From NCBI GenBank assembly GCA_023053545.1, contig JAKZAN010000131.1, positions 23,696 through 87,695 of the forward strand: 64,000 bases of DNA. The letters are read 5' to 3'. A program made the translations under genes and the position numbers. A model generated the notes under the pieces. The model saw only the letters and a list, made by a program, of their open reading frames with translations. It made no database searches and was not told where the DNA came from. The DNA comes from Lepidurus packardi (taxonomy: Eukaryota; Arthropoda; Branchiopoda; Notostraca; Triopsidae). Positions 25,021-60,794 of this stretch are shown here, one piece after another (the first letter of the stretch is position 1; each line of letters starts with the position of its first letter).

Positions 25021-27582
25021 ATGTCGTGTGATACTAACTTCGGGTTCCTCCTAAAATTACGTGAACCACCCAATCCTCTCTATATTCTGTCTTTCAAGGA
25101 CCCCATTCTTGCTCGTTTCTTCAGGTCCTGGACTACTATCTAACCATTTCGGAAACGGTGTCATGCAGTTGGTCCCTTTTAATGGTCATTCTGGCTGAAT
25201 GGTTCGGTCTAATCAGAGAAGTTCGCAAAGGAGATCGTAGGAAATCTGAGGCTACTTAAATGGTTACATCTCAAAGATCTCGGACTAGACCGCCTGGAAC
25301 TATCTCAGTATCTGAAGCAGAGCTCAGAACTTGGTGACTTATTGAAATATCACTACGAGGGCTATTAGATAGTATAGGAGGACATCAATGACTATGCGAG
25401 GGGCGACTTGGTATTGTTCTATCATAGGTAGAGAACTGCAGATGTCATTGCTGAGTCGGTTGCACACGAGTTCGAAGGACTCACCCACGAAGTAGTATCC
25501 TTAGATCCTGAGTAGGTTTTGATCAATAGTGGCTTGAGTCAGAACCAAAAAAGACTTCGACCGATCCTCTAACACTTATGTAGTTTCTATAAGGATAAGC
25601 TAAGTGCCTAATTATGTTCTCCACTCAACATTATGCTAAAGAATCTGAGTCCTTTTGATGGAAGGTCTGTTTGTTTGGAGGTAATAGGGTTGCGGAAGTA
25701 TTTCTATCAATTGTATGACAAGTTTATGCATTGGCTGGAGATTGGACTGAAGCTGTGCGTCAAATCCACAGAGGAAATCGAGCCAGAGCGTCTACCTAGA
25801 TTCTAAAAGCGTGTCATATAGCGCATGGAGGCACAAAAGGTGTATGAACCATAGATATCCTACATCGTGAACAAAAAGTTCATGCTGCTCTTGGGATCCA
25901 CGAAAATGGACTAATAAATACTCTATTAACTGTAATGCTCATGGTGCAATCTGGCCAATTATTTGGAGTAGCGCGATAAGACCCAACTCTTTAACAGTAG
26001 AGAAGCCTGTGAAGAACTTCAAAAGAAAATTAGACGGGGCATTAGGTGGAAGTAGTTCATTTTCAACGAAGAGGGGCAGAAGATACTGTTGTTATGTGGT
26101 CGGGAGGAAGGCCAGAAAGCAGTAGCCATTTTGAGAGATTACGTGTTCCGGAAATGCCTAGTCCCTCTCTCCTATGCATTCAAAACTCGCGAAGCCTATG
26201 AGTACTTCAAAGAGTAGCAAAACTCTGATAAGTTATTTGAGAACTTAGTATTCAAACAAAACTAGCCACTGCCTGGAGAAGAGATAGAAGAAGGGTCCTG
26301 TATTATCACACTTTCAAGTACCAAGAACCATGAAGACCAAGTCATAAAAAGACTTGAAGCCTATGAGGCAAACTTCTATAAAGTGAGAGTGACCATACCC
26401 ATTAAAAGAGAAGTAAGTCTTTCGGAAAGGAAGTCCATTAGAAAAATAGAGAGACCTGGTTCTGGGGTGTACAAGGGTTGTGTCGACAGCTAGTTTAACT
26501 ACCAAGTTGGATTGGGTACTGTGAGAATTGTAGCTGAGTTAGATAGCTGCCTTTACGACAGAGTTATTGTTCCCGTCCACCATGATGGCACGTTTTTCAG
26601 TGATATTTGTTCTAAGCTGCTCCAACGTGAAAACGTCCCAAAACTAAAGAAGACTCGGCCTTAGTTCAAGGATAGGGTCAATACTGAGTGCAACTAGTGG
26701 GAGTCACCGCGATAAATCCTGTTGTTTTACGTACCTGCAACAAGTAACTAAATACGATAAGACCTCAAAAAGATCATCGACATCAGAAAATCTGATGCTT
26801 CAGCCGGTACCCTCTGGTTTCTTACCCCTGAAGCCCTTGAAGATCTGTCGACCATATAAATTCTATACGTGATTAGAGGATATCTAATGCATAACTGGAA
26901 GAAGCAGCCTTTTTTAAGAAAGTTTGGATTCATATGTTCAGGTTCCGAACACACGAAATCATTCAAGAATAAGCTGATTCGTTCCATGCAAGGGCATGCC
27001 AAACCTAGAACCCCGCCCCTCACCAGTAATCTTCTTGACTGGGTTTCAGAGTGCCAGTTGAAGGTCTATAGAATGACGGTTTCTCTGAAAAACTTTCCAT
27101 TCTTTTGTCTTCCGATCGTAGTGCAGAGACACCTGAACATGCTTTCGATGAATGAATCAGAGACCTTAAAGCCAAGACTATTCGTAGTAATACCACCATC
27201 GGATGCAGTAAATGTCGAATAACTAGTTGTTCACTGCAGGGAAAAAGTGGTCATCAACGCCACTAGAATGATATCCTTACCTTTGGACTAATACTGGAAA
27301 ACTCTTAAAAATAGTCCTGGGAAGAACCTTCTCAGGGACTTTATACAGCTCAATTTGGAGGAAGATACTCGAAGTACGGAGAGTGTGATCACAACGATGT
27401 ACGTGAAGGCAGAGAATCCTGTAGAAATCTGCGGGAAGGTCTACCGGGTGTAACCAGACTAACTGTGTCCTTTGCACACTTCTGAACCACCCCTCAAATT
27501 TGAAATAAGGAGGGAAAATGTCTCAGTCAATCTGGTGTGTGGGCACCCTGATTCACTCCTGAGACTGCTTCGAGTGCCATGA
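25021..27582 (+). CDS. large hypothetical protein, TAR-codon rich
   Basis: One uninterrupted frame of 853 codons with 31 in-frame TAA/TAG codons. An in-frame TGA lies just upstream of the ATG, which fixes the start. The protein is soluble and mixed alpha/beta with no membrane segments. A Cys- and His-containing end (CPLHTS, later VCGHPD) hints at a small metal site but lacks full RING or zinc-finger spacing. I do not recognise it. Its codon use (rich in reassigned codons, AT-leaning) differs from the GC-richer BAH-PHD gene, as expected for a low-expressed or fast-evolving gene. Confidence 0.75.
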
Positions 27583-28146: not shown

Positions 28147-31128
28147 ATGGAGCCTAAGTAAACTAACAAGGTCAAGTACTCAGTCTTCGTCAGGATCCGT
28201 CCCTCGCTCAAACTTGCTGCCTCAGCTCCTATTTTCAGGTCTGAACGTACCAAATATGTTAAAGAATTCCGAGAGAAGTCCATAGTCACCTACTGTTTTG
28301 ATCATGTCTTTGATTCTGAGAGCACAAACCAAGACATCTACGACAAAGGTTGTGGCAAGATGGTATCCGCCTTTCTTAACAAGCAAGTCAGTACTACTAT
28401 CCTGGCCTACGGACAGACTGGTTCTGGCAAAACCTACACCCTTTTCGGACACAAAAACCAGAGCTAAAATGGGATTGCAACCCATATCGTGGATGAGGTG
28501 CTCCTGTATTGCCAGAATAACAACAAGAAGATCCTTTGCACCTTCATCCAGATATACAAAGAGAAAGTGACTGACTTAATCAGCAACAAGCCGATTCTCC
28601 TCAGAGACAATAGTAAGGGCGATCTTGTACTCGAAAACCAAACCGTCTGTGAAGTGTCTTCCAAGAAAGAATTCGCTTAGTTTTATGCCCAAGCCAACTA
28701 AAATAAAATATTCGGTAGCTCTTATGTCCACAACGAATCTTCCCGCTCACATGTCATGTTCTCTCTGAGGGTTAACGGCGCAAACCTTAACATCGTCGAC
28801 CTCTGTGGTAGCTAGGTTCTGACCTACCAGTTTGACCAGAAACAGCGAGACGAAACTAACAGTATCAACCTTTCGCTGTTTACTCTGAATTCGGTGATCA
28901 GCGATCTGTGCGATACCAACAATTCTAAAAAATTTATATCGTTCAGAAACTCTGTACTCACTCGACTCCTCAAAAGTAGTCTGGTCAATACAATGACTGT
29001 CACGCAGGTCTGTCTCTTTTGTAATATCTCACCTGAGGCGGAGCATCGCGATCTCAGTGCCAGTACTCTACATTTCGGACAGCTTGCTATTAAGGTAGAT
29101 CAAGCAGACAACATAAAGTAAGAAACAGTCAACAGAAGTCAACAAAAAAGAGATCTGAAGAAGGTTGATAATATTTTGAGCATCACTCCAGTTCCTTACA
29201 GAGGTCTTTTAAGATCCAGATGGCAATGGGAAGCTTAGAAGGTAAATATCTGTGGGAATATCACGAGAGTGTTGAAAATGCAGTCAAAGGATACAGCAAC
29301 AGATAATGTTTTGTTGCTACATGCTTATGGAGGAGGCTGTTGTGGCTAGGACTGGGACAATCTGGTGTCTTACCTTCTAGAGCCAGGTTCATACAATCTC
29401 TTCTCAGTGGATTTCCCAGGTTTCGGCTACTCAGATGGTAAGAAATTCAGCTCAAGGGCAGAAAAGTTTACCACTAAAGGAGAATCCATCGAGTTCCTAC
29501 AATAGCTATTTAAATATTTTGGGTTCAATCCCAAGAATAAAGTCACTCTCATCGGATATGATCTTGGAGGTGCTATCGCCTTACATGCTGGTCTGGTGGC
29601 GCCTCTAGCCAAGTGTCTCACGAGCATCTGCGTCTTCCATCCAACATGGACCGACTCCATCGATCGTCTGTCGGCTATAACATCTCCGACGCTAATCTTG
29701 TGGGCAGCAACTTAGACGTTCCATCTTGTGAGTGCTGGCGAGAAAATGGCTAAGACCATCAAAGGGTCGATCATGCATAAATACAATATAGGGCCTTATA
29801 CGAACTAGAAAGCAGCTGGCTACTTTGACATGTACTTTGAGACCGTAGCCAAATCATTCTTGGAGTTCTTGTAGAGTTTAAATCCTTAAAAAACATCAGA
29901 CAGAAGAGGAGAAGTAATTGAAGAGATCATTGTGACTAATGTTAGTAAGCAAGAGGAAGAATTGAGTAAGGCTCGAGCTTCAGTTCAGTAATTTTTGAGG
30001 ATGATAGAGCAAAATACCCACAACCAGGTCTACGAGTCATTATGGAAGGGTGGCAGTGGTAAACCCAAAGCTGTAAAACTTGCCTCAGACTTGCCCCTCC
30101 TCGACTTACAGTCCATAAGTTTGGAGCTGCTCAAAAGATACTAAATCTGGTCTATTTGCCCATCGACAGATAACCTACGAAATGGTTTGCCCTTACTGCC
30201 GGCTGGTCGGCAGGTCCAAGTTAAGACCAATATCCATCTCTCAGTGTTATAAGGCCCAGATAATTATCTTGCATACTGGCCTAAGGGAGAGCTCGGGATC
30301 ACCCACAAAGCTTATATTGCAAGAGATCAGACGGAGGAAGAGATATACTAAAAGAGACGGGTGAAGGTCATTGTCGACAACTATAAATCATCGAAATAAA
30401 ATAGGAAAAGCGTAATTGAAGTACCCCTTGCTGACGTAATCAGGCTGAATTCTGCCACTATTTTCAGACGGAACAACATGGGAGACCTTATCTTTGAAGA
30501 TTCAGTTACGTGCAAATATTCCTCAGCATTCGTGAAATTGAAAATGCTCGAATGCTGTAACGCTATCCGTCCTCTGGTCGAAAAGATGGACTTCACTCAG
30601 AACAATATGGAGTTATTGAACTTGCAAATGGAATGTACCCGTAGGATACAACAGCTTATCAATCTCCGACACCTGGTTCACTAGGGCATAGACAATACCA
30701 GGTTCACAGGTATCGATGTCGGCAAACTCGCATATTATGGCCAGGGGAACTGCCACCACTTGGCTAGTGTTGCTGCTGCCTTTTTGCTGCCTTTCGGCAA
30801 GATTCTGGGCTGGGATGTTATTTTTAGAGCAGGTTCTTTCTTCAAAACAGGGAGAGAGCTCGACGCATCGGGTATGCCTCTGGAAGGTTGGGACGGAAGA
30901 CCAAAAACAAGCGTAGAGGATCACACGTGGCTCGAACTCGTCTACAAGCCTTCCTACTACATGTGTGTGTTCGACCCCAGCTTCGACATCTGCAGTGCAT
31001 AGCTGGACCGGATCTATAGTTTATAAGGCAAGATGCACATTTCAGACCGACTACACTGCAATAGTCTGGAGCCCCCAGTTCCTGACAAACTGTACAGTGC
31101 CACTGAATGCTTGAGCACTGGCTACTGA
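28147..31128 (+). CDS. kinesin motor - alpha/beta hydrolase - transglutaminase-like fusion
   Basis: One intron-free frame of 993 codons with three domains. (1) Kinesin motor, residues about 5-320: P-loop GQTGSGKT at 89-96, switch I NESSRSH ending at 202, switch II DLCGSE at 218-223 whose final Glu is the TAG codon 28813-28815. (2) Alpha/beta hydrolase fold, about 380-580: oxyanion region HAYGGG, DFPGFGYSDG, and nucleophile elbow GYDLGG at 470-475, with Asp472 at the usual Ser place, as in epoxide hydrolases and haloalkane dehalogenases; no clear catalytic His follows. (3) Transglutaminase-like domain, about 850-990: putative triad Cys869 (GNCHH), His926 (DHTWLEL), Asp943 (FDPSF). A helical Glu/Gln linker (about 600-660) lies between. 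A microtubule motor carrying enzymes or enzyme-like binding modules is implied; cargo and substrate are unknown. Confidence 0.85.
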
Positions 31129-32154: not shown

Positions 32155-35100
32155 ATGGCTGATCCTTCTACTCTGTCTTTCGGGCTCACCAGTCCTTATG
32201 AACTAGCCCTCAAAACCCAGGAACCCTTAAACTCTCATGACTTCAGTATGTTCTGCATCGGCCATAATGCCTTCGTGCTCAGAAACGGCAACACCTTTAA
32301 TTGCCTCATCTATTAGCAGCCCAATCGATAACTCCTTGTTAAAAAATCTTCAATCTTCAATCTCTAGAACAAACGAATAGTATCGATTAGCGTGTTGGGT
32401 CCCGATCCATCTCTGGTCCTCGTGCTCACCAATACTGAACTTCTCGGGCTTAGCCTCAATAAATCTACCTTGTAAATCCAGGCGACTGTTTTATTAACAG
32501 TAACTAACCAAAACTACGAACATGTCTGTGCTGTGTCGGCCACTTCAGTCTTCCTCGTGACTTCGAAGTGTGAGTTAGAGCTTTTCGAGTTGACCAACGC
32601 TTGGCAAATGACTGCAAGTCCAAACCCCATGTTGGTGAAGGGGTCCGTCAGTATTCCTGAGGTTAGTAACGGAAAGATCAAAAAGATACTGATTGTACCC
32701 AGTCCCCAGAACAACAAGTACTTAGGACTAGTTGTCACTCAATACCAGGGTTCGGATTTCCCCAAATAAACCCTGAGCGTTGTTGAAATAAACTGCGCCA
32801 AAAAAGAGGGGTCATCGGCAGATGTGTTAAGCTGTGATAATTTCGATGTGGAAGATGTGCGAGTCGAGGGTTTCCTCATACTTTCTAGTTTCCGAGTCTA
32901 TGTGCACTAGGAAAAGAAGACTGAATACCTGGAAGCATGCCTCAACAACCAGTTAGTTGTCATCTGCAAGTTTGTCAAGAAGTATATGATCTGGGAGGCT
33001 GTCTACGACAAGAAAATCAAATAAGATGTCTTAGACTTCAGACTGGGATTCGCCACGCCACACTCCTTCTATGTCGTCCAAAAGCTTCATATTGAAATCC
33101 ATGAACTCAGTCTCAACGAGGACAAATCGTCCAAAATGACTCTGCTCGAGGCTAAGTTGAGGGACTTCATCCCCGATGAAATGAGTCTGCAATTACCTTT
33201 TCTGGGGGTATGCACAAGCAAGTCAGGACAGATGATCCTGAACAAGCAGAAAAACAACTCAGTATGTCTGCGTCACACCTTCAGCATGGATCCATTGTAA
33301 AAACTCAGTCAGGCAGTTACCCTCATGACACACCAGAAGGATCTCGAGAAGGAGTTACCAGTTATTATCGATTTCATATCCAAAAAAACAGGTAGTACCA
33401 AGAAAGAAGTCCAGAAACAGTTATGGTTAAGGTGGCCGCGTGTGCTGGAGAAGAACAGCGAGTTCATCAAGAAACTCCTAGCTGTCAATGACCCAGTCTA
33501 TATCGAAGAACAGATCAAGTCCCTGCTTCAGTAAAGCCCCCTCAAAATCTAGTTGGTCGAGGATCTCCTGTTGAAGTGCAAAAATATGTACAAAAAGGAG
33601 ATTACCAAGGCATTTAACTGTAAGTCAGCTCTCGCCTTTATCAAATGCAACTTCAGACTGAAGAAGATGCGGCTTCATATGGGCAGCTGCAAAATGAGTC
33701 TTATCACTTACAAGGAGTTTGCAGAAATTTAGGAACGCAATATCGCCAAGGAAATCAAGCTTTACTTTGAGGAGTTCAGGAAGGCTGACCTACAGATTGC
33801 CCTAACCTTGTTCGGCAAGCACTTCTTCGCCACATATGAGTAGAATATAATCTATGCCTTTGAGAGGATACGCGATCTGACCTATTTTGTGTCCAATTTC
33901 AACTTCTTGTTTCCCCTACCCAAGAACCCTCAGATCTGGGAGCTCAGGATGGACAAGAGAGAAACTGAAGTCCAGCTAGAAACGCTCAAAAAGTGGCACG
34001 CAGCAGCCAAAAGCAAAACTCCAGAACTGCCCACGTGGGAGGAGTCTCTCAAAGAACTCAAAGCTGGTTGTAGAGGCTACATGATGGACAACGACATATT
34101 CCCGGATCCTGTGCCTCCCCAAGATGGTTCTGTGAGCTCATATGAGGATGCTTACTACAGCTTCTTCACTGCGTTAATCAAAGTAGCCAAAACCGACGCA
34201 TAGGAGACATTTAGAATTCTGGATATTCTTGCTATAGAGAACGAAATTCAACAAGAAATCAAAGACAAGCTAGATGTGATTCTGGAACTATACTTTTTGA
34301 TAGACTCCCCGAAGGTAGATCTCAAGACCATGTTAAAACTGACGCCAGAGGGATTCTTCGCGTATCTGCTGGAACTCTAAATCTACGATAGCTTCGTAGG
34401 AATCGTCAGGGAATGTTTCGATGAGCTCGAAGCCCATTCTCTGTGTGAGTCTTTCGCGAACTACCTCAAAAAATATTTCACCTCCCACACAGTGCTCTGC
34501 TCGCACTTCGGCATGATTCTCAAGGCTGCCCAGAGCATCGAGCAAGAAGACTTCGAAATGATTCTAGAGACTCTGATCGACTGCATCTACGAGACGATGC
34601 TGATAACTCAGGCGTAATATGTGCAGAACTACATAGAGACCTATTTTTTGTATCAGGGAATCAAGAGTTCAACCCTGAAGACTAAACTGTTGAGGCTCGA
34701 AAATATCATCGCCAGAGAGGATCTTTTTTCGAATCTCCACTCTAATCTGACTCTACTGGAAATCGAGTACGGGGACAAAGTCATACAACTCAAGATCGAG
34801 AAGTACTTCTCAAAACCTGATCTCCCGAAGTTCATGAAGTTCGTTGATGAGATCGTCTACTTACGTGAGGAGTTTTATCTGTAAATACCCATCAACAGAC
34901 TCCTGAAGGATCTACTGTGCTCCGTCATCAACTGCGTCAAGAAATGGGGAACACTAGTATCACAACTACTCACCCATAGGATTCTCAGCAAGGTGCTAGA
35001 AGCCAAAGCTTTACTCGAATAACAAATTTTTATCAGAAGAAACTACCTGTATACTCATTTCCCAGACTTTGCCAGCATCAAATCCCATATGGAAGAACTC

Positions 35101-36378
35101 ATGATCCAGTATGGCGAGCCTAGTTTCAGATCGATCTAGACATTGCGACTCGAGTGGTTTTCGATGGTTCACTGCCTTCCCAATCACTGTCCCAGCAAGT
35201 GCATCGACATAAACACTACAGAAGCTTGCTTTGACCTCTATAAGTTCATCGACCTCCCTGAACTCTATTAGCTTCTTCCTCAACAGTCCCAGAAAACGCG
35301 GCTCGTAGAACTATTCTTCAAACTAAACTCTCATGCGACCTAGATGGGTTATACAGAAAAAAGTGTACTTTCGGAGATGGCCCTCAAGCAGATCCTGAGA
35401 GTTTGCGAACAGGCTCTTGAGGAAAGAAACTTCTAAAGATTCCTCTAATGCTTTTAAGAACACCTGACTAAAAAGAGAGACACCGACAACTTGGACTTGA
35501 GACTACTCTGGATCAAGTTCATGGGTTACTATGCACAAGAAAACTATTGGAACTCACAAGGTAAGCAGTTCCTTAAGCGATGCCTCTTTTCGATTGTGGA
35601 CTTCAAAGAGTCCATGCACCAATTCTTTAGTTTCCTGAACTAAGAGAATGAATAGATGTTCGAGTCAGACCCAGAGATAGCAATCCGAATGTCCAACAGT
35701 TTCCTCAAGGCTAAAGGACAGAAGTGGGCCCTGCATAAAATTAAAGTTATCGAGCAGAAGATAAGCAAAAACCTACAAAAAGAACTCAGCACTGTAGAGT
35801 TCATGTTTAGGCACTTGTTGCTCGTCGACCATATGATAGCCTTCTACCTGCTTAAACGTAGCCTCAAGGAAGTGGACATCGACAACATCTATAAAATCGT
35901 CATTCTGACCGTTGAATCAGAGTATATAGTGTATAAGGCCGTCATAATGAACTCTCTGCTGGATGCTATCTGCCAGATCTTTGTGCTGGCTTACCCTAAT
36001 GAGACGATGACTCTCTCCGAGATCACCCACCACAAACTATTGTCGCTGATTCTAAAGCTCAAACCTAATGCGAAGGACGAATCTAGTCGCAACCAGCTGA
36101 CATTCTACTAAACCATAATAGCCAACACTGTCCGACTTAAATAGTTTTATGAGAAAATCGGGGACAAGAAGGTCGTAGAAGATGTTTTCGACGCGTCATC
36201 ACGGCGCATCGACGACGTACTGAATACCTTGGAGGTGTTCAATAGCACGATACTTCCAGTTTTCAAGCTTTCTGCGAGCGAGGGGAAGGACAACACCGAG
36301 AAGGCCTACAGCAATCATATCCAGATCGGAGAGTGCCTAGTGGAATCAGAGGTGGATGAAAGTCAGCTGACACATTGA
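32155..36378 (+). CDS. 1,407-residue propeller-plus-solenoid protein (nucleoporin-like layout)
   Basis: One intron-free frame of 1,407 codons. The first 430 residues are beta-rich with repeated strand patterns, as in a seven-blade propeller; the remaining 950 are almost all alpha helices in solenoid style. This layout and size are those of scaffold nucleoporins (Nup133/155/160) and of several vesicle-coat and HOPS/CORVET proteins. No signature motif lets me choose; the start SFGLTSPYE resembles none I know well. No membrane span or coiled coil is seen. Structure prediction would decide between nuclear pore and coat roles. Start ATG 32155 opens the frame; TGA is at 36376-36378. Confidence 0.55.
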
Positions 36379-41334: not shown

Positions 41335-41340
41335 AAAAAG
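41335..41340 (-). terminator. RNA polymerase III T-run
   Basis: The plus strand reads a run of A just before the tRNA, so the minus transcript ends in six T directly after the discriminator and one extra base. Confidence 0.75.
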
Positions 41341-41413
41341 CACCCGCGAAGGGGCTCGAACCCTCGACCATTAACTTAAAAGGCTAACGCTCTACCGACT
41401 GAGCTACGCGGGT
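41341..41413 (-). tRNA. tRNA-Lys (UUU)
   Basis: A full 73-base cloverleaf without intron: 7-bp acceptor stem ACCCGCG/CGCGGGT, D-arm GCTC/GAGC, anticodon stem TTAGC/GTTAA (one G-T pair) with loop CTTTTAA, and T-arm with TTCGAGC. The anticodon is TTT, decoded from 41378-41380 on the plus strand, so it reads AAA/AAG (Lys). The 5-base variable region is TGGTC. A run of six T follows the 3' end on the minus strand, a Pol III terminator. It is not a UAR-reading tRNA: a shift by one base would make UUA, but the stem pairing fixes UUU. Confidence 0.95.
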
Positions 41414-42538: not shown

Positions 42539-45500
42539 TCAATCGGCAACGAACTGGTCGCTGAGCTCCAGGATCTCGTGTGCTACTTTTTCATCTCTCT
42601 GGATAAATAGGATGAGCCTCGGCGCCGGGTATCCTTTGAAGTTTGGATCTTCGAAGGGCTGTTCCCTGCCTTCCAGCCGAGTGTAAAAATCGACTACCCC
42701 CTGAGTATCCAGACCAGCAAGTCCCACATGGTAGAAGTATTCTAGGTGAGGGTCTCTCTCAATATCTGTGCGGAAATCCATCAGGAGCTTGGTCTTGTAG
42801 CCATCCAAAACCTGATGGGCCATGGCCTCATCGAATGTGTGATGGTAGAAGACTAACAGGACCAGGGCTGTCCTTTTTTTTGCGAGTTCTAGTCTGGACT
42901 GAAGGTTCTAGTTGCGTGTAGCCGGCACGCACTTGCCCTCTACTAGGTTCATCCTGAGGTTATTCTTGAAGTAGAAGGGGAAATCATCGCGAAGGAAACA
43001 TGTTTTGAACTTCCCGTAGTTCATGTAGCGATGTGCTACCGAACTGTAAAAATCGAAGGTGTTCTTCAGGGAGTCTTTGTTGTATTTGATGCTCGCTGCC
43101 TTTAGTTGGTGGTACTTGGTCAGCCATCTGTGGAGGCCCACCAAATCATCTTCCTATTGTCTCTGTAGCTACTGGGTGATGCTGATCAATTCAGTGCTAG
43201 TCTGAGTCTTGTCTCTGTCTGCCATCGACAACAGAGTCTGTTGGTAGAGTTTGAGCTTCTCGTAGTAGACCTTTTATTTAGAAGCAAGGAGTGAATACTG
43301 TTCTAGGTCTATAAACTTGTAAATTGAAACTTCCTCCTCGAAGTTCTCGTAGTCAACTGCGAAGTTGAGCATCGGGATAGTGAAGTGCTCGCTCAGTTAT
43401 TTGTAGCCTTCGAAACCCTGGTCGTTTGCCTGGGCAAAAATCAAAACTACTTGAGGCAGTAGCGCATTAAATTTCTGGACACACCTGAAGATCTTCTTGA
43501 CATTTTCAATCTGGCTGCAGAAACTCAGTTTAGTATCCCATTTGTAGCAGTAGTGCACATCTGCTGAACCTTCCAAAGCCTTAGGGTCTGTCCTGAGGAG
43601 CGACTCTATCGACTGCCGAGTCAGAATATTCATTCTCCTTTTCAACTTCTGGTATATGAGGCTCCTAAACACCATCTGTGGGTCATACACTGCAATCACT
43701 GGTAAATGATGGAGCTCCAAAAGGAATTTCTCAATGGTTGTCAGGAAATAGGAATCTTATTCGAGTAGAGTTTTTTCGACAGAGGGGACGGCAAGAAGCT
43801 ATCTGAGGGCACTAATCTTTTTATTTCTTTCGGGTGCTGGGTAGAGCAAACAGAAGTAGTTCACTATGCTAGTAAAGAGGTACTAGTGTGGGAAGTGTGG
43901 TTTGGATTGCAAGTAAGGACTTTTCTGGATGTACTCGAATGCCTTGGTCAGCTGGCTGTTCTCCTGTTCACAGGTGCTGATCTTCTGTTGGTGGGTGTCT
44001 GCGATATTGTCGAAGTGAATGCGCAGTCTTTAGAAGTAGAAGTTGCGTCTGAGAGTTGCCTATCTGTGGATTACGGGTTTCATGAGGTAGGAGTGAGATT
44101 TGTCCATAATTTCCAGGATTTATCTGTAATAGTTGAGTACTTGCAGCACTTTCTTTTTATTCTACTGGTTCTATGATGTGTCGAGGAGAGAGCAGAACTT
44201 GGTCATGGAGTTGAGGTGCAGTGCAGGCTGGAGTTCTGGCAATGACAGCAAGTCTAAAAGCAAAACAGTTGAGGTCCCTGAGCTTGGTTTAATTTTCAGT
44301 TATGAAATGAACTCTCTGGTGGCTATCTACGGATCTAATACCTAGGTCCAGTTTGTCCCTTGCTGATTTATTTGTTTTTCGAAGAGACTCTCTATAGCAT
44401 CCAGGGTCTCAGCCATCGCCCCATTGTCTTTGGTGGTATCTTCACTTACCAGACTCTGTTGACTACCGACTCGCTCCATCCTTCTGCTGTTCGTCTCGGT
44501 CATCTTCTCCAGTTGTTCTGCACTGCTTTTGGCTTTGTCTCTCGCTAGTACGAGGCCGTTGATATTTTCTAAATTGGTCTCCAGGACTTTTCGGAACTTT
44601 TTGTAAACGACTGACTGGCGCTCTGGCTTTTAAGTCTACTGATTCTTACTCACCACTTCGTAGAACTCAAGCATATATCTTTCTGAAAACTAGCTATCGA
44701 AGAGTCTCATACTCTCATAGACTTTCTGTTCGTGATCTGGGCTCTTGGGACCCTTTGTCTTCTGAGTCAAAGATTAGAAGAGAGCTGAGGGACTCTGTTA
44801 ACTCTTGAAGTGTTGAAGGTCTAAGACATCGAAATGAGCATCCAAGAAGCTTTATGGAAATAGCGATCCCACTTTGACTTCTTTAGCCAGCACGATGAAT
44901 CGAATTGAGTAGATCATCTGCAAGAAGGCTGGTCTTTCGGAGTCCTAGTTGATTTAAGTAGATCCATTTACGATGCGGACCACCTGCCTTCGTCTCAAAA
45001 ACTCTTGGAAGAATTTCTAGGCGGTGGGATAGATCAGGAAGATATCATCTTCATTCAGAATATGCTTCATGATGGACATCAGAATGGATTTGCTGAGAAG
45101 AAGGGTGTCTGTGAGGACGACGTTCAGACCGCAGCATGCAGCCCGGTGGAGGTCGATCAGATGATTAAGGATACACTACAGTGGCCTGTCAATGTTCCCA
45201 TCGATCACTAGACTAGTTCTATTCTGCACCGTGGAGACCAAGATGGACAACTAGGTGGGGCTTCTGACCAGGATATAGTTGCGAGGGGTAGCCAAGTAGC
45301 CGAAAATATGGATATCGTATTTGAGAGTGATAAGACGTAGCTATTCAGGATTAGCTAACTTCTCCGTTGATTTCTCAATATTTTAGGAGGATGTCTCTTT
45401 GAGCATAGCTTCATCGACGTAGAAAGGAGGAAGGCTATTGTGATTGTTAAAGTTGATCAGGTTTTTGACATTCTGTAAAAGCCAGGCTTAGGTTTCTGAC

Positions 45501-48500
45501 CAGTTTTATGCAGGGATCGATCCTAGGGTTTTCTTAGTCATCAGGACCCTGTAGACACTGGAGTACCAGGATTTAATCAGAGCCTGGTACGAAAGACGAG
45601 GGGAAGATAGCTTCGACCAGATGATCCTGAATCGTTGGAAGTCATTAATCTGATATTTGTCTGTGAGAGTTTTCATGAGGGAAGGAAGTTGTGGGTCAGT
45701 AGCAGCACTCACGAACAACTTAAAAATATTATCCATGAGGATCTACGGCAGCACCATCCTGAAGAATACACGCTTTAGATTGTAGTCCTTCATTGCAGCG
45801 TGGGTACAAAGCACGAACTGCACATGAATTGGACTGCCATCTGACTGGAGTCCGTGCTAGACTGCCGAGCGTAGACTCACTATCGTTTCTGGTGTAGCCA
45901 GCTCGATATCGTCTACGATGCAAATGCCATCTTTCAAGTTCCGAACTAAGGACTAAAAGTGACTGTCTTCAGAATTTCCGCTTAGGCTCAAACGTACAAC
46001 TCTTGTGTCCTTGGGGTTCTCGATTAGATTCTGGGTGATCACCCGCCTAAAAGATAATGCACCACCCACCACATGCACCGATATCTTATAGGAAACGGTG
46101 AGGTCTCGGAGGAAGGTGAGATTGCGTTCGTTGACAAGTGTGTTGATGTGGTTTTTGTGTTTCTGTGCTCTGGCCAGGTCATCCCATCTGGAAACATTGG
46201 TCCCTGCCATAGTCAGACTCGACATTGAAGTCTTCTATGAAATCGCATACCCCGCATTGTGATACTGTTTTTTGAGATGGACACAAAGTTCTGCGCTTTC
46301 CTCCGCTGTCGGATTCATGCACATAGTGATGTCAATGATACAGAAGAACAGACTTTGTCGGCAAAACAGGTCGACCTTGTCGCCGAACCATTTTAATTTT
46401 TAGCCGTAGACAGCAAACACAGCTTCGATGAAGTAGACGTGGTCAGCAGTAGGGCAGTACTTTATGCAGCCCAGTAACAGCTCTGTAATGAAGCCTGCAT
46501 ATTTCTTTACAGGTATCTGTTCTGTTAGCGACTGCACCTTCTATTTAACTATGAGAAGAAGGTAATCAGGGGGTCTTTTGACGTGGAGGAGTCGATAGTC
46601 TGCGAGCAGGGCAGCAGAGAGGTGATCAAGTTTAAAGCATTCGAAAATGTTGACAGTCTTCTGGCTGAATGAACAGGAATACTGGCCAAAGGGATGGCAA
46701 TCATTCCGGTAGTACTGGATCCCGATCTTCTGAAGCAAATACGATTTGGAGCTGGTCTCTCCGTAGACTATGAGAGGCCTGGTACCAGATTCTGCAGTGT
46801 AAGAATTCAGAAGATTGCTGTAGTGTTCCATGCTCAAGTCGGACTTATACTCGAAAAAAAGATCAAGCAGAGTTCTGATAACTGCTGAGCTCTGCGCATA
46901 CTTGTACATAAAGAACGCGTGCAGACAGTTCCCGATCTTCTCCTTGATGTTGCCTCGGAGGGGATTCTGCAGATTCCCATTCATAAACTACAGCATTTAG
47001 TTGACCACGCGTGAGGAGATCGGTTCAAAAATTCCTAAGATGTTCAGGAATTTCTTGATCTTAGTCGCATAAGGGCCGAGAGGACAACTCAGTTTTATCA
47101 GTAATGTCTCGATAAGGAGTGTGCTGTTCGGTTTTATCAGTGTCGACTGAAAGCTCATCATACTGTTTAGGAACTGTTGGGTCTTTGGGTCATAGGAAGA
47201 TTGAGTCTGTTCTCCCTCGAAAAATATGGATAGTTTTCTAGGAGGATCCTGGGTTTTCCAGTACATGTTTAGAGTCTGTAGTTTTTAACGGATCTCATCG
47301 GATAGTTTGGCGATCCCTTGGATTAATACAAGAGTCTTGCACGTCAACAGCCCACGATAAAGCCCCTAGAGATATCTTGCCGTGCAGATATTCTAGTGTG
47401 GTCTGATGACAAACAGATTTCTTCCAGTAATATGCGCCATGATCTGTAGCATCTCCTCAGCCTGGTTCAGAATGGCTGATTGGAAATACGGAAGTTGTAT
47501 TTCTGGGTTGATGGCCAGCCCTGGATGGAGCTAGAATTAGTATTCCAGCTAGCGATTGAAGAATTTAACGGTGTACCCTTCGGCAGACCTGTATACTCTC
47601 AGCAGCCTGAGCCACTCAAAGTCCGTGGGGCTTGATGAGGGTGCATCTAATGATGCATTATCCTCCAGTTTCTTCAGCACGTTTTCGAAGAATATCAATT
47701 GACAGATCATTACCTCATACTTGTGCTGGGGGTTTTACAGGAGAAGGAAGATGTTGGTCTCTTTGTTGATCTTCAACTGTTTTCTGAGGTTACTGACCTC
47801 CACCAGATCAGAGTAGGCCTTCTCATACTCATTCGTAAAATCGAGGAAGAGGTGGAGGATTAAGACGAGGGCCCGCTCTTCTTTATACTTGATACCTTTG
47901 GCTACAGTTATTTTCAAGACGTACTCGAAGATCTTCAGGAACTCCAGATCTTTGCTGACTATGTCCTGGGTGTGAATTCTCTCTCGGAACATCCAGACTT
48001 CTTCTGACGATGATACTACACCAGTGATATCCATTTTTTAATCAGTCAGGAATCGCTTGACTCCTGAAAACAACTTCCTGACTTTACTCTCCAGAAAGGA
48101 CATATCCGATTTCTTCAAATCCAGGTCAAGTAGCTCCTCATCGGTCAGTAAGGCGAGTCTCGAGAACTCCCTCTTTTTAAAAAGAAGGTAAGTCATGATC
48201 GAATGCTCGAGTGCCTAGAGCACATTCCGTCCAATCCACAGCCTTATTTTCTATGCCTCATTGAAGTAAAATTTGGCGAGCATATCGATATTCTGTCCTG
48301 ATACACTCTGCACTAGCTGGTTCCAGTCCTCCACCACGATGTCGAATTCACGGATTCTGCTCGGCAGATAGTTGGCGAAGCTGCTTTTGCGGAAAATACT
48401 TGTGTACTTGTTCAGGGACTTTTGCAGGTCTGACAGTTGGTGCATCACAGAAACAGTATTGGCCAACGTATCGGAGTGGATGATCTCGAGTTGCTCATGA

Positions 48501-51500
48501 CATTGCTTGATGAGTAGATCCAGATTTTTAATCTGGTATGCCTAGGTGGACAAGGACACCTCTAAGCAATGCGTAGTCATGAAAATAAAATTCTACTCGA
48601 CCAAAAAACGTTGGTATTGCTACTTTTTTGAACTGATCAAGACATCACGCAGAATGGCTATCTCAGTCGATTTAGCCCTGGGTCCTTTGAGACTCAATGC
48701 CTCTGCGGTTTTGGCTAGGTAAAGGTCTTCTTTAGAGGGACTAAATAATATACACTGGCTGATCTGGTGGAGTGCTGCTTCTGAATAGTTCTTGTAGGTC
48801 AGAATCTCGAGATAGTCCATATTGTGTTTAATGTTGAAGAACACTCTCTATTGGTCGGCTATCAGGTTCTTCCTCTCCACATTGCCCAGCAGAACCTAGA
48901 GCTTCCCTACAAAAACTCCGACTGCTGCATACTATATGGCAGATAAGCAGGTTTTATGGAGGAAGAAGTAGTGCTCCTCCATGAAGTCAGACACCAAGGT
49001 ACAATTGAACAAGAATGTGATCTGGTTTTTGGCTCTGGCCAGTGAAATGGTGTTCTCGCCTCCTATTTTGGTCAACTCCTCGCCCAAGGCTGTTGCTCGA
49101 GTCTAAATCTCAACAAATCTAGCATGTGCTTCTCGAATACGCAGTTTGTTTCGAATCAGGTCGTGTTTCTCATTTGTGTACTTGATCAGCTCTTAGATTG
49201 TAGCGGAGAGCTTCATGAATACAGTGATCAATTTGGCTTCTTCCGCCTTGATCTTCGCCTCTTCTGCCTCTCTACGCTGCTCCATTTTGACCCTTTTCTC
49301 TCGAATCAGTCCTGGAAAACCAAGTCGCAGACGTGCAACCTCATGTAATATCTGATACAGCGACGGGTAGTCTGGATACACAGGCTATTTTTAGAACCTG
49401 AAAAACAAGCGTGATCGATCCTGCACAACAGCAAATAACCCCATCATTCCCTCAAAGAGTGCTTCCATGGTGTCTTGAAGGTCGTAGTAGTGATCGTAGA
49501 GTCCTAAGTTTGGATCAGAGTACTATCTTTTGAGTCTTGTGGCGATACGAAGTATCTCTTCGAAAGCCGAGCTGTAGAATGCACGGATGCGCATTTCTAG
49601 TATCAGCATGAGTTTGAACTTAACTAATCTCAGGTTGAAACAAATGATACCAGCCTAGACGAGTCCATGTGCAGACTCCAAACAGCTGAGTTAATCAAAC
49701 TCTGTCTGTAGCTGTTTGACAAACTATGGAACTGTAGGATTATGGCTGTGCGTGAATGGGACTATCCCTACTCTACCTTTGGTTCCTTAAAATCGACGAT
49801 AAATCTCAGAATTTTTATCAGTTTCCTCGTGTGCTTCAGCCATGATTGCCTTGACCTCGAGTGTGATTAGTTCCAAAAAAGTCAGCTCATTCAGATTATA
49901 CGAAAACTCTTATTTCTAACCCTAGGAATTGGGTGAGGAAATACAGTGTGGCAGTGTTTCAGTCACTGTCTTGAGTAACCCCAGAAATTGGTCCTCGAAG
50001 CTTTTGAGTAGATCCAACAGATCACTGAACTGAGTGTAGGTAGTCAGTTTTAGGAAGATACGGGATTTTTTGCCCAGCATGCCCTTCAGGAGATGCACGA
50101 TCTACCAATTCAGGGTACGAAGATGTGTTTGCAGAAAGCAGACAAACTTGCGGCTTTCTTCCTTTTCGAGGACAATTTCTTTGAATTTGTTGGCGATTGT
50201 GTCTGTGAAATCGATGATTCTGACTCGATAATTCTCGAAAGGCAGACTTTCCTGCTGGACTCGCGAAACCTCCTTCCTCAAGTAGCCTAGGAGGGTTTGC
50301 TGTTCGTTCAGGTAGTAAGTCATAAACCTTAGTTTTGTTCCCTGAATCAGCAGAAGGTGGGTTTCAAGATATTTCTGTAATCTCTTCTTCCTGTTTCGTT
50401 GCTTTTCTATCAAGGATTTATCTTGATGTTAAATTGCACCCAGTTAGGCTTTCTTCAATTTAATACCTTGTGTAAAACGCATCATAGCACCAGTGTAGTT
50501 TTCCTCGACTTCTGTAACCAGAGCATTATATAAGGGTGTAGGACTTGCCATAGTATTAATTCGCAGTCCAGTTTCAGCAAGGGCCGCGATAGAGTCCTGA
50601 GACTCTTCAGCAGACATTCTTCTGGAGTTTCTGCGTTTTCGGGGCTGGGTAAGACTGAGCCTAGGGCCTGTCTCTTATCTTTTGATTTGTTTGCGGGTGT
50701 ATTCTAGGAAACTCTGCACCTTCGTATGGTCTTGCTCAGTCAGTTTCATAGAGGATTGGCTCGAGTTAAACCTGTTCAGAGGAGATGGTCTTTTGTTGCT
50801 TCTGCTTTGGCCATCTTCAGAAGCTAGTGAGAAAAATCTTTGACGCGAATGTAACTTGAGATCAGATTCACTCTCTTTGGGCATAATGAGTTTCCGCTGG
50901 GAAGGGGTCCTCTCTAACACTGATGAGGAGCGTTACTTTGGTTGTTACTCCTTGGTTTTTATGATTGAGCTTGGCTTAATGACCACAAAACAGTGCTCCT
51001 TCACTGTAAACTTTGGCTCCGAGGCCGAACGCATCATAGCTATACGAGGCAATTTGCTGATATCCGGGAGCTTCTGGATGCTCCAAACCAGTTTCTCAGC
51101 TACGAAGTATTCGATCTGGGTGCCAATTACAGAAAAAATGCCCAGAGGCTGCACCTCTATGGAAAGGGAGTGTTGGGGCTTCGAGTTCAGAGTGGTCTGC
51201 AATCAAAAGAGAGGGTGTGTCAAGTTAAGATAAAGGAGAGCACGTTTACTAGTAGTTTTTGTAGCATCCGCTCGACCATATTCTGTATCCTGGTCACGAC
51301 CTGTCCTGACTCATGTTGGCTGCGGAAGTGTTCGAACAGAATTATGTTCTTCTTGTTTTGTACAGGAGACCACCAAGGGCTCACATCTTAACTCTTCTTG
51401 ATGTACTTGAACCTGCCGAGCAGGATGGGCTCCAGCTGAATGCACACCAATCGATTTGCCTCAGACAGGTTGACAATGGCACCCAAAGAGGGGATGAGAA

Positions 51501-58534: not shown

Positions 58535-60794
58535 ATGTCCAGACGCCGCAGTCCCAAGCCCAGAAACGATAAAACTAATAGCCTCGCACCCTATCTCCAG
58601 ACCCTTGAATATAAAGCCCCCACCCGTCCCCTTCGAAGCATCTAAGTCCGCAGCCCTCCACCCACTGAAACCCTTCAAGTCACACGCAATCTATCCCCTT
58701 TCCGTTGGACCAACAAAGAATTTATCCTCCCTTATGTATACTTCCCGCCTAAGCTCTATCTCTCAATTCTGTTCTTTTAGATGTGCATAGCTTCGATAAA
58801 GATCTCAGCAGCCGAGCATCTACGAAAATCCAACTGAGGTTGCGCCTCTCCTTAGCACTCGCGAGCCTATCCACACTCTCTCGATCCACACTGATCGTTA
58901 GAGCCACTCAAAATACCTAGACACGAGCATTACTACTCTTCAGCAACCACCCATACCAAGAGCTACTACCCGCAACTTTCGACTCAAAGAAAGACGAAAC
59001 TTAACCAGCAGTGTAACGATAGAGGATAGAAAATTTATCTTCCGATCAGGTGATGAGCTGGTCAAGCGGACGTTGCTGGGTCTGGGCTGGTCGGAAGCCA
59101 AGAACAAAAGTGACAGCAACTTTGTCCTCAAATGGGTGGCTATTGACACCCCAACTGACTATATGAGCCTCAAATAAGGACAATTCTACAACCACATAAG
59201 ACACTCTGACCAAATTACTAATAAAGGCAAACTAACTCTAAACCTCCGTAAAAATGGGAATTGCGACTACTACCCGCGTTCTTACGACTTGACGTCACAT
59301 TACTATGAGTTCGTACAGGATTTCACGAACTCAGCTATTTTGGGGTTGCTGAAGAGATACATCGACTACTTTAAGATTAGATGTTTTGAACTCTACGAGC
59401 AGCCGTTAAGAACCAAACTGTCTTCTTTTTTGAAGAGTCGTCAGTTAATCGCTGAGACCCAACAACAAGATGTCATGGTGAATATCAGGATCACTGTCCA
59501 ACTGTGTCTCTACTTGGAGAAGCTCCGAAGGAAAGAGAACATCCATTGGGATACCAGAGATAGCAATGATGAGGAGTTGGAAGAAATCAACCTCGATGAA
59601 AAAGCTATTGAAGATCTGCGGAACTTCAGTACTGAGCTGACTGCGATTGGGAAACCCTCGTCCAGATCTGAGACACCCAGCCCAGAACTGGTCTCGATGC
59701 TGGTGCAATACCATAGACTGTTCCTGGATAAGCATCGGTGGTACAGACACGATTCTTCCCGAAATATATGGATCGTGAAACCCACTTGTTCTTCCAAAGG
59801 ACAAGGCATAGAAATCATCAGTAAACTGGATCTGCAGATTACCAGGCTGAATAACAAAATTGCGCAAAAGTATATCGATAATTGTCTCATCGTCAGAGGC
59901 AATAACTCTGGCCACAGGGCTATTGAGGGCAAGAAGTTTGATATCCGCCAATGGGTGCTGGTCACCAGTAATCCCCAAAGAATCTATAGATTCACGGGTA
60001 GCTATCTGCGGTTCTGTAGCGAAACTTATAACATCGATGCTCTCAAACAGGCAAAGAGGCACCTGACCAACTACTATGTCAATCGCGGCCACTTCGAAAA
60101 CGATGACGATGCCCAATCCGTCCTCAGCTCCGAACAACTACTGGACTACCTATAGAAGTAGAGGGGCATGAAGAGTATCAGGCAGCGCTATCACGTGGAG
60201 CTTGACCGCATCATCACAGAGACCATCAACAACGGTCATCTGGAATTCCAAAACAATTGTTTCTAGCTATTTGGGTTCGATCTCATGCTCGATGATGCTG
60301 CCAAGATGTGGCTGATTGAAGTCAATCTTACGCCAGCATGTGCAGAGAGGTCGGCCTGGCTCAACTCCATGCATGAGGAAATGGTCAACTCGCTTCTCGT
60401 GACAGTGCTGCCTCCCTCATACACCACTGCACTCCAACCTTTGATTGATGTCAGCAAGTACTCGTGGAAACTTATCTATGAAAAAAATATCAAGGAAGAA
60501 AGATACACGAGACTGAATCATATGCAATAATTGTTGAAGAACGGAGCAGTAGAAAACAGCCTCTTGCAGTAGGTCAAGAAGAAAGTGGTCGCACGCAGAA
60601 CTCTCGAAAGGCTTATAAAGGGCTACATCAACGCATATCCTGTGCTGGTCGCCCGAGAGATCCTCGGCAGTTACTCGGATCTCAACAACCAAGTCAACTT
60701 CGAAGCGACAGCGACACTGGTGAAAACATTGCAGCTTCCCTTCAACCGGGTGTCGAGACAAATCTTCTCGCTACTGAAGCAGTCAAATCTTTGA
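58535..60794 (+). CDS. TTLL3/8-type tubulin ligase (likely glycylase)
   Basis: A 734-residue protein after removal of a 55-nt intron (58736-58790) near the 5' end. It has the TTL ATP-grasp layout: WIVKPTCSSKGQGIEI (nucleotide loop), FDIRQWVLVTS, NCFELFGFDLML and WLIEVNLTPA with the metal-binding Glu and Asn. The N-terminal part contains SLKEGQFYNH and a TNKGKL segment typical of the glycine-adding TTLL3/TTLL8 branch. TAA 59175-59177 and TAG 60264-60266 fall on strongly conserved Glu. Such enzymes add glycine to tubulin tails in cilia. The mapping to glycylase, not glutamylase, is by N-terminal motifs only. The N-terminal 180 residues are Ser/Pro/Arg-rich and disordered. Confidence 0.85.

Follow-up and report, generated by a model that had tools for sequence, protein, structure and literature searches.

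A kinesin motor, a hydrolase fold and a predicted transglutaminase-like domain in one reading frame under the peritrich nuclear code

The window, meaning the whole stretch of DNA that was analyzed, is 64,000 nucleotides long and was taken from contig JAKZAN010000131.1 of the Lepidurus packardi assembly GCA_023053545.1. It contains a long reading frame which starts with ATG at 28147, stops with TGA at 31126-31128 and includes 21 internal TAA or TAG codons read as glutamate. At the background TGA frequency of 2.0% of triplets, a run of 993 codons free of TGA has a probability of approximately 2e-9. The frame encodes a kinesin motor, an alpha/beta hydrolase fold module, a middle region and a likely transglutaminase-like core (Table 1). 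A preliminary description had reported one uninterrupted frame at this position, and both the coordinates and the frame were correct once TAA and TAG were taken as sense codons.

Table 1. Features of the kinesin gene, with coordinates given as positions in the window.
Feature	Residues	Position	Strand	Basis or comment
Single reading frame	993 aa	28147..31128	+	TAA/TAG = Glu, TGA = stop
Kinesin motor domain	~10-330	28174..29136	+	PF00225 2.9e-60, PDB kinesins from 2.4e-29
Neck-linker-like stretch, through in-frame TAA at residue 325	~316-340	29092..29166	+	Alignment of own-genome motors
Poor-codon-usage stretch, start of hydrolase module directly behind motor	351-400	29197..29346	+	Codon score -9.0
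Alpha/beta hydrolase fold module	~356-588	29212..29910	+	PF00561, PDB 3bdi, E. coli alignment
Candidate 42-nt in-frame GT...AG intron	366-379	29242..29283	+	Read from sequence, length confirmed
Middle region	~589-829	29911..30633	+	No Pfam match for 29902-30720
Transglutaminase-like core (likely)	~830-960	30634..31026	+	hhalign 30.5 vs controls
Predicted catalytic Cys869	869	30751..30753	+	Block scan
Predicted catalytic His926	926	30922..30924	+	Block scan
Predicted catalytic Asp943	943	30973..30975	+	Block scan

For the test of the genetic code, 21 of the 35 matches to the 993-residue protein in the assembly were aligned, the query motor locus being one of the 21. The aligned motors held 45 TAA and 42 TAG codons. 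TAA stood opposite glutamate in 11 of the 15 columns conserved at 50% or more, with G, G, F and D in the remaining four, and TAG did so in 11 of 12, with D in the remaining one. The TAG codon at residue 223 lies within the DLxGSE motif, and glutamate fills its column in each of the 19 readable rows. The TAA codon at residue 325 faced a column with glutamate in 8 of 15 rows. In-frame TGA codons were found in two of the 21 motor matches (L011 and L022), one in each. The columns fit the peritrich nuclear code, in which TAA and TAG encode glutamate and TGA is the stop codon. The standard code was ruled out for the frame by its 21 in-frame TAA and TAG codons and by the conserved glutamate columns that such codons face. 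Codes with glutamine or with lysine/glutamate are known in other oligohymenophoreans, according to excerpts of PMC10553269, and a reading of TAA as glutamine or lysine, as in those other ciliates, was unsupported by the conserved-column counts in the 21 motors. The fusion of kinesin, hydrolase and transglutaminase-like parts becomes visible only under the correct genetic code.

The N-terminal domain is with certainty a kinesin motor, as judged by its match to PF00225 over residues 33-314 (204.4 bits compared to a curated cut-off of 29.3). A full motor had been claimed in the preliminary description, and the P-loop (GQTGSGKT, residues 89-96), the SSRSH motif of switch I (residues 198-202) and the DLxGSE motif of switch II (DLCGSE, residues 218-223) were all found. 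Alignment to the motors of the same genome (21 rows, one of them on the wrong strand) ran on beyond residue 325. The query motor was the most divergent of the 21, with a mean identity of 29.9% compared to 32.2-46.6% for the others. The top PDB matches were a mixture of kinesin-8, Kar3 and kinesin-2 at similar scores. No long coiled coil was visible by eye in the translation following the motor. Retention of the ATPase motifs and of a neck-linker-like stretch makes it probable that the motor binds to microtubules or moves along them.

The fold of the second module is clear from a sequence match above the curated cut-off, and the alpha/beta hydrolase assignment made earlier was upheld. The PF00561 match covered residues 388-499 (E 1.5e-10; 41.6 bits compared to a cut-off of 25.8), and the module alone scored 47.2 bits. 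The best solved relative was Ta0194 (3bdi, 3.6e-8). The module is short between the strands at the position where other members have the lid. It was aligned to MhpC, BioH and RutD of E. coli, the catalytic residues of which are established. The nucleophile position was occupied by Asp472, the acid Asp position by Glu523 and the catalytic His position by Pro550. In the nucleophile column MhpC and BioH have Ser and RutD has Ala, and RutD is no control for that position. The nearest histidine is His544, six residues ahead of Pro550, in a column that holds a different, non-catalytic His in MhpC. No His was present in residues 545-624. Since none of the three classic triad residues is retained, the module is most probably inactive as an enzyme and would be pseudoenzyme-like. 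The earlier suggestion was of a motor with its own enzyme, acting possibly on proteins or acyl groups. For the hydrolase module activity was contradicted by the residues at these positions, and an acyl-group role of this module is unlikely. The same kind of loss is described in excerpts of PMC7022630 for NDRG3, where the fold is retained and the catalytic triad is substituted. In contrast to the present protein NDRG3 has no motor attached, and the likeness drawn here is in the kind of loss.

The C-terminal part had no Pfam match, and its best NCBIfam match (RNasePH, E 0.19) and best PDB match (an unrelated chain, E 1.4) were at chance level. It was compared to 30 bacterial PF01841 loci, which were excised by a permissive transglutaminase motif and not by match coordinates, meaning that a few may be misplaced. 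A plain HMM search with the profile of these 30 references gave all three C-terminal fragments negative scores. The 12 best rows listed, at 0.0-6.0 bits, were all drawn from the set of 500 shuffles. Alignments to the Cys block and to the His-Asp block were still obtained for two of the fragments. Cys-His-Asp patterns were also counted in 20,000 shuffles, where the loose pattern occurred 86 times and the strict pattern did not occur. Both patterns were written with the query in view, and reliance was therefore placed on a three-block scan and on hhalign.

The three-block scan was built without the query and allowed a variable gap. It used 21 of the 30 references, nine being dropped due to missing anchors, and in eight of the 21 the Asp anchor was unusually spaced, at 8 or 38. 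The best site in the whole protein was Cys869/His926/Asp943 with a score of 17.8, which was reached by none of 1,000 shuffles. Of 289 negative pieces one scored higher (18.3 compared to 17.8), and the 21 true members scored 34.6-100. When the core was aligned by hhalign to the profile of the 30 transglutaminases the two were in register, with a pairwise E of 4.4e-4 and a probability of only 34%, the query side being one sequence. The best of 200 shuffles scored 21.5 and the best of 118 other pieces of the window scored 18.7, all 318 controls falling below the core. Against the same profile, scores of 12.1 for the hydrolase part and 13.9 for the motor part were obtained.

A transglutaminase-like fold is thus supported, short of proof, and is considered likely for the C-terminal domain. 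An active Cys-His-Asp triad is predicted with less confidence, as somewhat favored over its absence. A motor-borne cysteine enzyme is therefore possible. The preliminary description had named both the domain and the triad. Its transglutaminase-like domain found support in the profile comparison, above all 318 controls, and none in the curated models or the plain HMM search, while its triad coincided with the site chosen by the block scan, in the same order. As in Transglut_core (PF01841), a Cys block, an HxW block and a DP block are present in that order. Unlike Transglut_core the domain is undetected by the curated model, and its Cys-His segment is 57 residues compared to 31-46 in the 21 bacterial proteins.

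Vasohibin VASH2 is a transglutaminase-like tubulin carboxypeptidase which trims tubulin tails, as described in excerpts of PMC6642083. Both VASH2 and the C-terminal domain appear to belong to the transglutaminase-like kind of cysteine enzyme, and both have a spacing of 17 between the His and the third residue (H193-S210 and H926-D943). The triad is Cys-His-Ser in VASH2 whereas it is Cys-His-Asp here, and the Cys-His spacing is 35 in VASH2 compared to 57 here. Membership of the vasohibins was rejected, as a PDB search gave no sequence match of the C-terminal part to a vasohibin chain and the third triad residue is Asp and not Ser. Vasohibin indicates that such enzymes can act on tubulin and is used here as an analogy only (PMC6642083, excerpts).

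The searches for relatives covered the same assembly, plasmids, viral contigs and bacteria, and their blanks carry no information on orthologues in peritrichs. The C-terminal part had no paralogue in the assembly, no pattern match in viral contigs and no match in 296 genomes of bacteria from a single phylum. No relatives were found in plasmids. A single bacterial match (L038) seems to be due to chance, the shared peptide being the end of an aldolase-like frame. For the hydrolase module the assembly held only a weak stretch of 54 residues on a large contig (E 0.012).

Unusual kinesin tails are an already known kind, as shown by fusions in Tetrahymena and by the variety of kinesin architectures. 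In Tetrahymena a kinesin-RCC1 fusion and a fusion of kinesin to an ER/Golgi tether are described (PMC3143110, excerpts). These are also ciliate genes in which the kinesin motor is linked to a domain that normally occurs in a different protein, but in the excerpted text their partners are neither hydrolase nor transglutaminase-like. A survey of 1,624 kinesins listed 105 domain architectures, most of them in a single organism, and the words hydrolase, transglutaminase, ciliate and Tetrahymena are absent from its main text (PMC2867816). The available parts of PMC8670190 contain nothing on a protein of kinesin, hydrolase and transglutaminase-like domains. No description of this architecture was found in the titles and abstract beginnings of the open-access papers listed in the literature searches. 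The earlier statement that no system with this three-part order had been described held within those papers, qualified by the other ciliate kinesin fusions already known. The combination of hydrolase and transglutaminase-like domains behind a kinesin motor was accordingly not found described.

The best explanation, held tentatively, is that of a ciliate with the peritrich code in which one gene would give a divergent 993-residue kinesin with an N-terminal motor, an inactive hydrolase scaffold and a transglutaminase-like enzyme. With the motor motifs and the C-terminal triad intact and the hydrolase triad changed, one possible enzyme is left at the far end of the motor. The motor, carrying its ATPase motifs and neck-linker-like stretch, would probably attach to microtubules or walk along them. 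The hydrolase module would act as a folded spacer or binding platform, like non-enzymatic members of the fold. The transglutaminase-like domain would be the only likely enzyme and would act by cleavage, deamidation or cross-linking on a protein that is held near the microtubule, the obvious candidates being tubulin tails and axonemal proteins. The preliminary description had put forward a motor that carries its own enzyme as new biology. Its three-part order in one frame was upheld, and an active hydrolase was not. A more specific version is a self-targeting kinesin which would edit tubulin tails or axonemal proteins while moving or docked, with the dead hydrolase as the platform that binds the substrate. 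This version is considered unlikely. As a rule motors and enzymes that modify tubulin are distinct proteins, and if this version were true one chain would combine a motor and a tubulin modifier. A motor joined to a cysteine enzyme-like domain would be a compact system in which to ask whether modification is coupled to movement.

It is possible, if on the doubtful side, that both tail modules are non-catalytic and only bind partners, in which case the protein would be a scaffold associated with microtubules or the axoneme. Among ciliary transglutaminase-like domains there are some without catalytic activity. The divergence of the motor would fit a role other than transport, and the changed hydrolase triad occurs in a fold that is reused without catalysis (PMC7022630, excerpts). 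However, the series Cys869, His926, Asp943 is preserved in full, in the family order and in a family-like context. If the C-terminal domain were inactive, the protein would be a further example of motor tails built from enzyme folds.

The protein could also be a cargo motor that delivers an ordinary enzyme to the cilium or the cell cortex, its tail domains serving only as cargo adaptors. Enzyme-like domains are able to act as adaptors, and a neck-linker-like stretch behind an N-terminal motor is consistent with transport. The lack of a visible long coiled coil behind the motor argues against it, monomeric motors being poor long-range carriers, and this explanation was judged quite unlikely.

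An artefact, in which neighboring genes were fused by a misread stop, a missed intron or an assembly misjoin, was considered very unlikely. False fusions are common in ciliate gene models, and in Tetrahymena the 25 remaining artefacts were approximately one third of the fusions identified (PMC3143110, excerpts). Codon usage was scored in 19 full blocks of 150 bases, with five other long frames in the window as the training set. The score of the 993-codon frame was positive in 16 of the 19 blocks and the highest of the six frames in 16 of the 19, and it was negative in the final stretch from 30997 on. The main doubt on a single gene is due to the abnormally poor codon usage directly behind the motor (residues 351-400). 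This block ranked fourth of the six frames, and a score as low was reached by none of 117 blocks of the five other long frames. It also contains the candidate intron and an in-frame ATG (Met378) just upstream of the first clear hydrolase strand. The TAA codon at residue 325 lies at the end of the motor, where the standard code would end it neatly. Against this, TAA is a sense codon and column 325 is mostly glutamate. Removal of the candidate intron would preserve the frame. Because the frame is free of TGA until 31126, a reading as two genes leaves the motor without a stop. Within the poor block residues 370-379 align to PDB 3bdi and residues 388-400 fall within the PF00561 match, and its weak codons are chiefly those for Gly, Cys and Trp. 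Most of the false Tetrahymena fusions have a long non-coding gap (PMC3143110, excerpts), whereas the gap between motor and hydrolase here is approximately 25 codons in an unbroken frame. A DNA search found the gene once, at 100% identity, in the assembly of 108.6 Mb and 344 contigs. A single transcript is supported, rather than proven, by these features of the sequence.

A hydrolase made active by an Asp in place of the usual nucleophile, the arrangement of dehalogenases and epoxide hydrolases, is highly improbable: Asp472 does occupy the nucleophile elbow (GYDLGG) and Glu523 might serve as the acid, but such enzymes still require a C-terminal His, the column of which holds Pro550, with His544 the nearest histidine.

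The kinesin gene is flanked by frames of 853 aa (25021-27582, plus strand) and 1,407 aa (32155-36378, plus strand), neither of which had a Pfam match at E 0.001. On the minus strand at 42539-51037 a 2,832-aa frame under the peritrich code matched dynein heavy chain N-terminal region 2 (3.8e-13). A tubulin-tyrosine ligase family protein of 686 aa (PF03133, 3.4e-50) was predicted at 58734-60794 on the plus strand, approximately 28 kb from the kinesin gene. Among the protein and family matches listed for the large contigs of the assembly, 13 of 14 were without in-frame TAA or TAG, and one large-contig match closely resembled a peptide N-glycanase of known structure (2f4m, 1.7e-36 over 81 aa). The large contigs thus seem to belong to another organism, and the window would come from a ciliate sequenced together with an animal. 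One tRNA gene, tRNA-Lys with anticodon TTT, was predicted by ARAGORN in the window, at 41340-41413 on the minus strand.
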